In this document: positions 23,602 to 30,277 of the stretch, one piece after another
Layout of the letters: the number at the start of each line of letters is the position of its first letter
How positions within the stretch are numbered: position 1 is the stretch's first letter
IMG/VR virus record: IMGVR_UViG_3300044546_000352
Location: 1 to 31,620 of that record
Origin: a virus
Direction: 5' to 3' (one strand)
DNA: 31,620 nt
Position numbers and translations under genes: made by a program
The notes under the pieces: generated by a model
The model's input: only the letters and a program-made list of their open reading frames with translations
The model's database searches: none
Told to the model about the DNA's origin: nothing

Positions 23602-24042
23602 TTAATACTTTGTTAATTTTTCGTGGCTTAATATTTTATCAGCCCACTCTTTGTTAATTGATATTAACACATCAATATTTTTAGGTATCCATACCTTTTT
23701 CTTTTTCTTTGTGTTGCAAACCTGACAAGCGCAAACTAAGTTATATTCCTTTCCTAATCCCCCATAAATATATGGTATTACGTGTTCTATTATAATTTCT
23801 CCTCCAACTTCACCGCAATACTGACAAGTATTATTATCTCTTTTCCTTACATTTTCTTTTACTGATGGGCAAGGATATAAAGTTATTCCGGTTTTATTAC
23901 TGAGATAAGCAAAATCAGTATAACACGCACCATAAGAGCAATTAAACTCTTTCGCTATCTCCTTAAGTCTTTTAGTGCTAAATCCAGTTTTAATAACTTC
24001 TTCAACAGCTTTTCTTCTTTCATCAATATTTAGGTGTGCCAT
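23602..24042 (-). CDS. HNH endonuclease with N-terminal helix-turn-helix, 146 aa
   Basis: Residues 19-47 look like a helix-turn-helix (GFSTKRLKEIAKEFNCSYGA) that would choose the target site. The nuclease has C73-x2-C76, H87 in EHVIP, N101 and C106-x2-C109 with N110, a zinc-stapled HNH fold. The protein is free-standing, like homing endonucleases. It is the only gene in this operon headed by a full-consensus promoter (24144-24174) and a compact RNA structure (24056-24139). Overlap with neighbours, seen everywhere else around it, is absent, suggesting late insertion as a unit. A packaging-type HNH is less likely because it lies far from the terminase. Confidence 0.85.
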   Translation of the reverse strand: MAHLNIDERRKAVEEVIKTGFSTKRLKEIAKEFNCSYGACYTDFAYLSNKTGITLYPCPSVKENVRKRDNNTCQYCGEVGGEIIIEHVIPYIYGGLGKEYNLVCACQVCNTKKKKKVWIPKNIDVLISINKEWADKILSHEKLTKY

Positions 24043-24055
24043 AAATATAAAATAC

Positions 24056-24139
24056 AGCCGTTACAAAGGCAGTCCGAAGAGGTGAAACCCCAAAGGCAAT
24101 GTAACGGCTATGTTTTTAATATTTTTCATTTCGGACTGC
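24056..24139 (-). ncRNA. pseudoknot-type structured leader RNA before HNH gene
   Basis: Two perfect 10-bp inverted repeats are interleaved. Reading the minus strand: S1 GCAGTCCGAA (24139-24130), S2 AGCCGTTACA (24109-24100), S1' TTCGGACTGC (24078-24069), S2' TGTAACGGCT (24065-24056). Order S1-S2-S1'-S2' is a pseudoknot if both form together, or a two-state switch if not. Linkers are 20, 21 and 3 bases. The 21-base linker can form a small hairpin (GGGGT-TTC-ACCTC, with a G-U pair). Transcription from the promoter at 24144 would start about at the first base of S1. The HNH ATG follows 14 bases after S2'. No known RNA family is recognised. Confidence 0.75.
24061..24129 (-). CDS. possible 22-aa leader peptide inside the structured RNA
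   Basis: An ATG directly behind the first helix strand opens a 22-codon frame ending in TAA at 24061-24063, 18 bases before the HNH start. The product begins MKNIKNIAVTLPLGFHL and is hydrophobic. Its codons cover both second-helix strands, so ribosomes on it would unwind the RNA. It may regulate HNH translation or be fortuitous. Confidence 0.35.
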   Translation of the reverse strand: MKNIKNIAVTLPLGFHLFGLPL

Positions 24140-24143
24140 GTGG

Positions 24144-24174
24144 CTAAATTAGTAATTGTTTTTTAAGTACCAAA
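24144..24174 (-). promoter_or_regulatory. promoter of the structured RNA and HNH gene
   Basis: Minus strand: TTTG at 24174-24171, 19 bases, then TAATTTAG at 24151-24144. This matches the Bacteroidota consensus TTTG-N19-TAnnTTTG in 11 of the 12 boxes' bases counting fixed and free positions (TTAG for TTTG is the sole difference). The predicted start point falls at about 24137-24141, the 5' edge of the structured RNA. Confidence 0.75.
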
Positions 24175-24185
24175 CTTTTCCAAGA

Positions 24186-26756: not shown

Positions 26757-26822
26757 TTAAAAACCAATAAACTTTAATATAAACCTCCTCAGGAACTGGC
26801 GGTGAGGTGGTCGAATACCCAT
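26757..26822 (-). CDS. possible 21-aa leader peptide in the replication leader
   Basis: ATG at 26822, TAA at 26757, 13 bases before the start of the 76-aa gene. The peptide begins MGIRPPHRQFLRRF and is very basic, with an RPP motif that can slow ribosomes. The frame runs through the 3' helix strands of the structured leader, so its translation would disturb them. Could be chance; a similar ORF exists in the HNH leader. Confidence 0.3.
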   Translation of the reverse strand: MGIRPPHRQFLRRFILKFIGF

Positions 26823-26881
26823 ATACCAGTTGCCCGATTCGGTTGTTTTAATAATTTCTTAGTGATTTTCGACCTTTCACC
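26794..26881 (-). ncRNA. structured leader RNA of the replication operon
   Basis: The region is visibly richer in G and C than its surroundings. On the minus strand, GGTGA-AA-GGTCGAA (26881-26868) pairs with TTCGACC-ACC-TCACC (26815-26801): 12 base pairs with a small internal loop. From inside that loop AACTGG (26831-26826) pairs with CCAGTT (26799-26794) behind it, a pseudoknot with a 1-base junction. Rival helices exist: on the plus strand CCTCA 26787-26791 with TGAGG 26803-26807, and CGAAT 26812-26816 with ATTCG 26837-26841, which exclude the long stem. Such a set of exclusive helices is typical of regulatory leaders. Confidence 0.65.
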
Positions 26882-26892
26882 AAAGAGATACG

Positions 26893-26900
26893 CAAATATA
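26893..26900 (-). promoter_or_regulatory. candidate promoter -7 box of the replication operon
   Basis: Minus strand reads TATATTTG, a full match to TAnnTTTG, 12 bases before the first helix of the structured leader. No TTTG is found at the -33 distance, so activity may need an activator, or the match is chance. Its position at the head of the leader and behind the GIY-YIG gene favours a real promoter. Confidence 0.45.
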
Positions 26901-27004: not shown

Positions 27005-27658
27005 TTAATAAATACCTAATTTAATTTTAGATATTACTCTTTGAGATACGTTGTACTTTAATGCAATATCTTTTTGAAAAATTCCTTCTTTCAGCATTTT
27101 ATTGATTTCTAATAATTGCATATTATTTATTTTTTTTTGTTTTTCAGTTACCTTTGCTCTATGTTCTTTTGTTTGTTTTCTTCCAGTATTCGCTAAAATA
27201 GAAGCTTCTTTAAACTTAGGGTGCAAACCTCTTTTTTTAGCCGACTCACTCATTTTTAATATTGTTTCTTTTGAGTACTTTCTGCCTAAAGAGTTTTGTT
27301 TTCCTTTTCTTAATTTAGATAATTTTTCGGATTGTTCTTTCGTTATTTTTGCCCCTAAAGTACTTCCTGCTATTTTTGCTATATTGTAAAAAGGATTTAA
27401 ATTGTCTATATAAAACTGCTCTCTTTTTATTAAATTTTCTTTTTCACAAAATTCAACGCATTCAAAATATATGTTTTTAATACCATATTTATTTACAAAT
27501 CTTTGAAGTTTTGCGTTACAATGTTTGTTTTGTTTTAAATGCGTTAAATGCGTGTGTTTTCTATTATAAAGATTTATTGCTGAACCTATATAAACTCTAT
27601 TATTAATTTTTGTTTTAATAATATAAATTCCTGACTTATTTTTAAATGATATATCCAT
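27005..27658 (-). CDS. GIY-YIG homing-type endonuclease, 217 aa
   Basis: From the ATG at 27658, GIY is at 10-12 and YIG at 23-25, followed by NLYNRKHTH with the catalytic Arg R33 and the acidic residue in EKENLIKREQFYIDNLNPFYN. Behind it are NUMOD3-type motifs (RKGKQNSLGRKYSKETILKM and TGRKQTKEHRAK) and a C-terminal helix-turn-helix (KDIALKYNVSQRVISKIKL), the DNA-binding layout of free-standing homing endonucleases. The gene is clearly more A/T-rich in codon choice than its neighbours. It is probably a selfish insertion between the methyltransferase and the replication operon. Confidence 0.88.
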   Translation of the reverse strand: MDISFKNKSGIYIIKTKINNRVYIGSAINLYNRKHTHLTHLKQNKHCNAKLQRFVNKYGIKNIYFECVEFCEKENLIKREQFYIDNLNPFYNIAKIAGSTLGAKITKEQSEKLSKLRKGKQNSLGRKYSKETILKMSESAKKRGLHPKFKEASILANTGRKQTKEHRAKVTEKQKKINNMQLLEINKMLKEGIFQKDIALKYNVSQRVISKIKLGIY

Positions 27659-27692
27659 ATTGCAAATATACAAAATAATACTCTTAATCTAA

Positions 27693-30245: not shown

Positions 30246-30277
30246 CAAATATAAGGGCTTTATGTTAATTGCGCAAA
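30246..30277 (-). promoter_or_regulatory. leftward early promoter
   Basis: Minus strand: TTTG at 30277-30274, 20 bases, then TATATTTG at 30253-30246. Both boxes match the Bacteroidota consensus fully, with a spacer one base longer than the ideal 19. It would start the regulator gene and, by read-through, the whole leftward genome. The -33 box lies inside the operator at 30268-30278. Confidence 0.8.

Follow-up and report, generated by a model that had tools for sequence, protein, structure and literature searches.

Homing endonuclease genes of the T4 type (I-TevI, mobE, segB, seg43(25)) carry an RNA structure just upstream of the start codon and a promoter beside it; the sections of the report cited here describe hairpins, most of which hide the Shine-Dalgarno sequence, and which are absent from the late transcript (PMC2988022). 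In phages T4, T2 and RB69 the gene 32 leader contains a pseudoknot upstream of the AU-rich initiation region; the cited part of the source places it 67 nt upstream and has the gene 32 protein binding to it (PMC3014915). Phage HK022 has two putRNAs, structured nascent RNAs behind early promoters, with putL just behind PL and putR about 270 nt behind its promoter; the available portion of the description gives two stem-loops and mentions no interleaved helices (PMC9378689). In the terminator-embedded HMP-PP (thiS) aptamers, as far as the cited excerpt describes them, the fold is merged with the terminator hairpin, and the class belongs to metabolism (PMC6478431).

The window, that is the whole stretch of 31,620 nucleotides studied here, is an IMG/VR virus record, and the host group of the phage is Bacteroidota. 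Its minus strand carries a promoter match, then a pseudoknot RNA (RNA1), then an HNH endonuclease gene (Table 1). RNA1 resembles the T4-type RNAs in lying just upstream of a start codon and next to a promoter, but its pseudoknot is wholly inside the transcript, with the promoter upstream of S1, and we do not assign it to them. It shares with the gene 32 pseudoknot the position in a phage leader upstream of an AU-rich initiation region; however, the genes headed by leaders of the RNA1 plan vary. RNA1 and a second leader of the window, RNA2, are like the putRNAs in being structured nascent RNAs behind promoters, two per genome, yet their fold is different and they are not members of that group. 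Among the marine and cultured-phage leaders described below, many look like the HMP-PP case, but they head phage replication genes and have no known ligand.

Table 1. Features of the two leader loci in the window and of the related loci.
Feature	Sequence or arms	Position	Strand	Remark
−33 promoter box	TTTG	24171..24174	−	kept in L003
−7 promoter box	TAATTTAG	24144..24151	−	one mismatch to the consensus TAnnTTTG
RNA1, pseudoknot leader RNA	S1-linker-S2-P3-S1'-S2'	24056..24139	−	two perfect 10-bp repeats, 84 nt
S1, 5' strand	GCAGTCCGAA	24130..24139	−	invariant across 3 contigs
AU-rich linker, 20 nt	ATGAAAAATATTAAAAACAT	24110..24129	−	
S2 (P2), 5' strand	AGCCGTTACA	24100..24109	−	
P3 hairpin, 5 bp	GGGGT-TTC-ACCTC	24079..24091	−	abuts S1'; GAGTG-TTC-CACTC in L003 (compensatory)
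S1', 3' strand	TTCGGACTGC	24069..24078	−	
S2' (P2'), 3' strand	TGTAACGGCT	24056..24065	−	TGTAGCGGCT in L003, U-A to U-G
22-codon open frame	MKNIKNIAVTLPLGFHLFGLPL*	24061..24129	−	starts MKNI; ATG after S1 to stop overlapping S2'
HNH endonuclease gene, 146 aa		23602..24042	−	N-terminal helix-turn-helix, then HNH
RNA2, promoter-proximal pseudoknot leader		26772..26900	−	before 76-aa gene and replication genes
RNA2 S1 / S1'	GGTCGAA / TTCGACC	26874-26868 / 26815-26809	−	
RNA2 P3 / P3'	AACTGG / CCAGTT	26831-26826 / 26799-26794	−	
RNA2 copies		L006:9174-9303, L008:4407-4539, L010:5122-5255, L011:4428-4556, L012:5051-5180, L018:4077-4206		
Gene after RNA2	MAEGKKS (L008, L010, L011); MAKELPYF (L012); MAKDPAFL (L018)			76-aa gene in the window
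Gene after RNA2 in L006		from L006:9306		homing-type endonuclease; Pfam HNH_3 6.5e-9; NUMOD4 0.0027, under cut-off
Marine leader members		L020-L025, L028, L031, L035-L043, L045-L051 (e.g. L039:5314-5405)		
Cultured loci				L234, Cellulophaga phage phi19:3; L237/L240, Flavobacterium phages sniff9-2, tooticki6-1; L238, phage 11b; L235, elemoA

Structure of RNA1

The initial annotation had reported a promoter followed by two perfect 10-bp inverted repeats interleaved within 84 nt, and both are confirmed. The −7 promoter consensus of Bacteroidota is TAnnTTTG, and the two boxes of the RNA1 promoter are spaced by N19. The S1 and S2 helices interleave in the order S1-S2-S1'-S2'; the segment TTGCCTTT lies between S2 and P3, and CTT separates S1' from S2'. 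The HNH start is indeed close behind S2', but at 13 nt instead of the 14 nt given earlier. The P3 helix and the 22-codon open frame had been missed.

Interleaved perfect repeats of at least 10 bp inside 110 nt, with at least four G/C per arm, were found in 0/600 order-1 Markov versions of the window, and without the G/C condition in 3/300, in agreement with the earlier claim that such helices are very unlikely by chance. A folding program without pseudoknots yields P2 with P3 (−25.4 kcal/mol, z −2.2); it can show just one of the S1 and S2 helices because the two interleave. The nested alternatives are each stable alone, extended P2 with P3 at −21.0 kcal/mol (−17.6 kcal/mol without the AU extension) and P1 with P3 at −18.6 kcal/mol. 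The tail 3' of P2', GTATTTTATA, makes a poor terminator.

The 22-codon frame was considered as a conserved leader peptide and rejected. Three of its 22 residues are altered (GFH to SVP), exactly at the covarying P3, so the RNA structure explains the pattern better than a peptide does, and the frame may be fortuitous. The phi19:3 leader likewise has ATG AAA AAT ATT directly 3' of S1, as read from its DNA, so the frame may still have a role.

Conservation and covariation of RNA1

RNA1 precedes the same HNH gene in two further IMG/VR phage contigs. The HNH-bearing contigs are L002/L006/L007 (91% at the amino acid level) and L003/L011 (85%), and L004 and L005 match the HNH part only. RNA1 with its flanks is identical to the window at 103/103 nt in one contig and at 97/103 nt in L003. 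It is present in all three contigs with this HNH, the window included, and in none of three HNH-less syntenic loci, which upholds the proposed linkage to HNH. Between the window and L003, the HNH gene is identical at 360/441 nt and at 22/36 fourfold-degenerate sites, the neighbouring 135-aa gene at 14/27 fourfold-degenerate sites, and the promoter region at 30/40 nt, with the TTTG box retained.

The RNA1 differences from L003 occupy columns 56, 58, 59, 63, 64 and 85; all six are in paired columns and all six keep the pairing. They comprise two P3 pairs changed on both sides, one change from G-U to A-U and one from U-A to U-G. Since the sample of three contigs contains only two distinct sequences, the shuffle control was uninformative (121/500), and random substitutions were used instead. 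Every pair survived six random substitutions in 4.75% of 20,000 draws, but no draw (0/20,000) placed all six within helices with pairing kept. Uncompensated changes in the helix strands had been named as evidence against the structure; the observed changes pass this test, but S1 and S1' never vary among the contigs, so for S1 it is uninformative.

The one-sided changes give G-U on the HNH strand and A-C on the opposite strand, and the G-U states show that the selected molecule is the HNH-sense RNA. RNA1 is thus a real, selected 5' leader RNA. A DNA-site reading of the repeats was also considered and rejected, given the G-U changes and the compensatory P3, both of which point to RNA of the HNH strand.

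Other leaders of the same plan

RNA2 lies behind TATATTTG at 26900-26893 and upstream of the 76-aa gene, a 269-aa gene and a helicase gene. Besides S1 and P3 it has a 5' hairpin P1, an outer S1b, P2 and P4, and its arm order is the interleaved plan of RNA1. In the alignment of seven phages, 16 of 27 pairs are changed on both sides, and pairing holds in 87.6% of cells. The observed values were reached by 0/500 shuffles on four of five measures and by 21/500 on the number of further pair types, and slid versions of the structure were 34–58% paired. Some helices in this alignment are one column off register (S1 in L011 and L006; P3 in L018, L008 and L010); RNA2 arms taken by hand pair from 5/6 to 7/7. 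The first gene behind RNA2 is of five kinds in the seven phages, and the persistence of RNA2 while this gene changes makes an operator dedicated to one protein unlikely. In L006 the combination of RNA2 and an HNH_3/NUMOD4-type gene is a second case of a leader RNA next to a homing nuclease.

We denote by R1, R2 and R3 the covariance models of RNA1, RNA2 and a group of marine leaders, respectively. The sources searched were the window and 49 loci; R3 matches 24 of these 50 at E<1e-3, and 19 of the 24 had gone into building the model. The marine leaders have a conserved CAATC, an AGTA/GAA internal loop, which we take to resemble the loop E motif, and usually a T-run. In the alignment of 19 leaders (A6), 14 of 20 pairs are changed on both sides, 97.6% of cells are paired, and 0/500 shuffles reached the observed values on any of the five measures. 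Six divergent leaders (L026, L041, L042, L045, L049 and L050) had been left out of A6; R3 afterwards recovered all of them except L026. In L021, L031, L039, L040, L041, L043 and L050 an ATG follows 6–11 nt past the end of the match, and the gene behind these seven leaders is either DUF6291-type (by Pfam in L039, by eye in the others) or a small MNILKEAN...-like gene. RNA2 and the marine leaders were noticed in the output of a loose 7-bp pseudoknot scanner, which gave at least 94 matches in its shuffled control, so their case rests on the covariation counts; their structures were derived from the same sequences as these counts.

The same plan is found upstream of replication genes in four groups of cultured Cellulophaga and Flavobacterium phages. 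The phi19:3 leader has an S1 of 9 bp, a P2 of 9 bp and a P3 of 4 bp, followed by T8. Each of the cultured-leader pseudoknots was matched by 0–3 of 1000 shuffles, an S1 of 7 bp being allowed for elemoA. L234 was flagged by a search for perfect repeats, and so, with a different partner helix, was L235; inspection by eye with G-U pairs permitted gave the structures of L237 and L238 and the P2 of L235, which were then checked. Upstream stretches were inspected in L234–L238 and L240 (L237 and L240 being alike), and L239 and L241 were covered by the models only. No pseudoknot was found in the stretches searched in phage Panino (L236).

The eight bases after P2' contain five T in RNA1, 5–6 in the RNA2 group and 6–8 in the cultured leaders. 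For 11 marine leaders the numbers are 7–8 in nine, two in L043 and four in L050, counted from the end of the 8-nt P2' core and hence including the last bases of P2'. In many relatives P2 and the T-run behind it look like a terminator whose loop is pseudoknotted. A generic terminator scan limited to loops of 3–8 nt made no call at RNA1, L039 or L234; this limit makes it miss P2 with the T-run, and the likeness to a terminator is a reading by eye.

Relationship between the leaders

RNA1 follows the general leader plan: a promoter, an S1 whose partner lies in the loop of hairpin P2, and a start codon soon after. By plan, we can state firmly that RNA1 works like these leaders. The third helix differs, being a hairpin beside S1' in RNA1 (P3) and flanking S1' in the other leaders.

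Over the 50 sources R1 finds the three HNH contigs, their antisense (E 0.056–0.15) and one more match at E=2.4; it reports neither RNA2 nor the marine leaders, and RNA1 is absent from the R2 and R3 matches at E≤5. Kinship of RNA1 with these two groups is therefore unproven. Direct sequence comparison of RNA1 with seven RNA2 and six marine leaders likewise gave chance or weak values (best 7/400 shuffles). R2 itself finds 7/50 sources at E<1e-3, all of them members that built the model, and among the eight cultured loci only the 11b leader (E=0.0017); R3 has no match on a leader in these eight loci.

The cultured leaders may stand nearer to RNA1. In 90 further loci (480,590 bases), which include 80 HNH-bearing genome loci and the eight cultured-phage loci, R1 gave four matches at E≤1, all on cultured-phage leaders and representing two distinct sequences. 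These matches, L237/L240/L241 (one shared match) and L234, are weak (E 0.33–0.37). On the eight cultured loci alone the same leaders are found at E 0.014–0.015, with linker aligned on linker and P2 on P2; the 11b and elemoA leaders have no R1 match. The phi19:3 leader shares with RNA1 13 identical linker bases right after S1 (7/2000 shuffles, in one of 17 comparisons), and AATGAAAAATATT, the last A of S1 with the start of the linker, is identical in both. Direct comparison of RNA1 with three other cultured leaders gave chance-level values. The leaders of sniff9-2/tooticki6-1/hemulen6-1 and phi19:3, which are the best R1 matches outside the HNH contigs, have the promoter-proximal S1-linker-P2-S1'-P2' plan of RNA1; unlike RNA1, they stand before replication genes, their P3 flanks S1' and their T-run is stronger. 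From these sequence matches we tentatively suggest that RNA1 and the cultured-phage leaders are kin by common descent. That R1 matches fall on these leaders gives more weight both to the leader explanation of RNA1 and to the existence of a leader class.

Searches for known families and further copies

As in the initial annotation, no known family was recognised for RNA1: at the gathering score, Rfam 15 gave no match for RNA1, the whole window, eight relatives, RNA2 or L039, the best Rfam match to RNA1 (E=0.069) being at chance level. On the eight cultured loci Rfam found only a tRNA, outside the leader. Exact RNA1 patterns retrieved from IMG/VR the two known contigs and matches judged to be chance. 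In blastn searches RNA1 had a best E=3 in INPHARED and E≥0.3 in plasmids, and RNA2 and one marine leader had no INPHARED match at E≤0.1.

In 395 genomes from the phylum of a Bacteroidia assembly, R1 had seven matches (E 0.04–0.43 per genome), which were taken as chance because six skip P3 and none keeps S1/S1'; R2 and R3 each had none at E≤0.01. The genome scans, which scored at most 8–10 candidates per genome under strict filters and without a positive control, show little. HNH matches were found in 13 INPHARED records and in 272/395 genomes, and the HNH search of genome contigs gave 80 loci, mostly covering the HNH part, with L090 and L137 covering the N-terminal part too. R1 found nothing at E≤1 in these 80 loci or in L004 and L005. 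Among the matches listed, titles and abstracts of the literature on Bacteroidota-phage leaders and structured RNAs held no description of RNA1, RNA2, the marine or the cultured leaders, and the leader RNAs of sniff9-2/tooticki6-1/hemulen6-1 and phi19:3 are unannotated in the public records shown.

Genomic context and the HNH protein

The slot after the 73-aa gene, where RNA1 and HNH reside, is not empty in the HNH-less syntenic phages L009, L010 and L012: it holds a TTTG-N19-TAnnTTTG promoter and a 54-aa-type gene, together with one or two small genes that vary. RNA1 was not found in these slots by blastn, and interleaved 7-bp repeats were absent from the 150 nt behind their promoters, as well as behind the window promoters at 30277 and 30375. 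The 3' end of the HNH gene resembles that of the 54-aa-type gene of L010 (AAGTATTAATC). Since the syntenic slots are filled with other genes, RNA1 and HNH sit in a variable-gene slot and interrupt no empty chain. The initial annotation, which had regarded the unit as inserted as a whole into a chain of overlapping genes, was thus only partly right, as a promoter and small genes occupy the site elsewhere.

In Pfam the HNH protein matches HNH (1.7e-8), HNH_5 (3.9e-8) and HTH_28 (0.014, under its own cut-off); the scan, which gave HNH and a weak HTH only, found no RuvC. A low-confidence structure prediction (mean pLDDT 52), of which only the N-terminal helices are usable, places these at residues 5–18, 22–31 and 36–50. 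Codons 22–42 (window 23917-23979), in the helix-turn-helix stretch, are hypervariable with respect to L002, with 36/63 nt and 11/21 aa identical, against 62/63 nt before and 293/312 nt after this segment. Judged from these identities, the DNA-binding part looks as if it had been swapped.

Discussion

Unrelated genes are headed by leaders that share one plan, and these leaders are placed between promoter and start codon, so a role in expression in cis is the best reading. Among the roles considered for RNA1, a cis-acting expression leader is most likely, ahead of a guide, a ribozyme or an operator dedicated to HNH. RNA1 is probably a structured leader at the 5' end of the HNH mRNA, and its action would be in cis, on the gene that follows. 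We infer that it works by attenuation, antitermination or translation gating, and likewise the direction and trigger of its control.

Judging from the −7 box, transcription would start at about the first base of S1. The nascent RNA would then fold into the pseudoknot: S1 would pair with S1' within the P2 loop, and P3 would form directly beside S1'. RNA1 would act in cis, as is presumed for the leaders of the same plan that head replication operons in relatives. Most likely the P2 hairpin would serve as the gate, terminating transcription or hindering the initiation of translation, with its state set by S1-S1' pairing; in many relatives a T-run and then the start codon come after P2. On this view the leader would be a general one, with HNH as one of its clients and not as a dedicated partner.

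A concrete form of the leader explanation is a translation gate as in the hairpins of T4 and Aeh1 homing endonuclease genes, for which the cited passages supply precedents (PMC2988022). Here the start region would be shut off by the structure, and HNH would be made from some transcripts or under some conditions only. P2 ends 13 nt before the AUG and its AU extension would reach about −7. In Flavobacterium johnsoniae, according to the cited part of the study, pairing is lower from −20 to +20 and initiation is tuned by structure (PMC6847099). Since the RNA1 tail is weaker and P2 or its AU extension reaches this region, translation gating is as plausible there. However, the promoter is upstream of the whole structure, so that each transcript from it carries the structure, and there is no Shine-Dalgarno sequence to hide. 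We regard this form as possible rather than probable.

The HNH protein might bind the pseudoknot of its own leader and repress its own translation, as T4 gp32 does, and the cited portion of the gene 32 work provides the precedent (PMC3014915). In the few known contigs RNA1 goes with this HNH, and the pseudoknot stands close upstream of the start codon; both agree with this. On the other hand, the same plan recurs in front of unrelated genes, and codons 22–42 of HNH change while RNA1 is identical, which would be odd if that part reads the RNA. Such autoregulation, suggested earlier alongside a leader function, is weakened by the unrelated client genes and now appears unlikely; of the functions suggested then, the leader fits best.

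We also doubt that RNA1 is a put-like antiterminator, in which the nascent leader would bind RNA polymerase and carry it past downstream terminators. The leaders are placed behind promoters of gene runs, their client genes vary, and this phage has two of them, as HK022 has putL and putR in the cited text (PMC9378689). But the putRNAs, as far as that text describes them, are two stem-loops with copies similar in sequence, whereas RNA1 shows weak similarity to RNA2 at best, and in many relatives the T-run behind P2' points to termination more than to antitermination.

Self-cleavage by an HDV-like ribozyme is very improbable. HDV-like ribozymes are nested double pseudoknots with P1.1, and their proportions are unlike those of RNA1. 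Minimal HDV-like ribozymes do share the helix order P1-P2-P3-P1'-P2', and the CUU that joins S1' to S2' in RNA1 begins with C, as does J4/2, where the first position is the catalytic C, in the cited part of the ribozyme work (PMC10879173). RNA1, however, has no Rfam match and no recognisable P1.1, and it has a 10-bp P1, a 20-nt J1/2, 8 nt before P3 and just CUU between P1' and P2'. The ribozyme and guide-RNA guesses gained no positive support beyond topology and adjacency. OMEGA or HEARO partners, IscB or IsrB, have RuvC-like and bridge-helix domains, and a guide or cofactor RNA of this kind is the least credible reading, for although the RNA adjoins an HNH gene, the Pfam scan of this 146-aa protein gave HNH and a weak HTH with no RuvC-like domain, which sets the pair apart from these systems, and the nearly invariant RNA1 has no variable guide segment.

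As for the wider picture, we propose tentatively, as a reading that may yet prove wrong, that Flavobacteriia phages have a widespread and so far undescribed class of pseudoknot leaders close behind promoters, in which a 5' strand pairs into the loop of a terminator-like hairpin. They may form a switch into the replication operon, RNA-only or with a host factor, onto which homing endonuclease genes have hitched (RNA1 with HNH; the HNH_3/NUMOD4 gene behind RNA2 in L006). As the leaders head DNA-replication genes and homing nucleases, they may set the timing of commitment to replication. The same plan in cultured phages (phi19:3, sniff9-2/tooticki6-1, 11b and elemoA) makes this testable in ordinary laboratory phage-host pairs.

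The same phage encodes another homing-type nuclease, a GIY-YIG endonuclease with a weak NUMOD3 match, at 27005-27673 on the minus strand of the window. It is separated by about 19 nt from the next upstream reading frame, which leaves little room for a leader.
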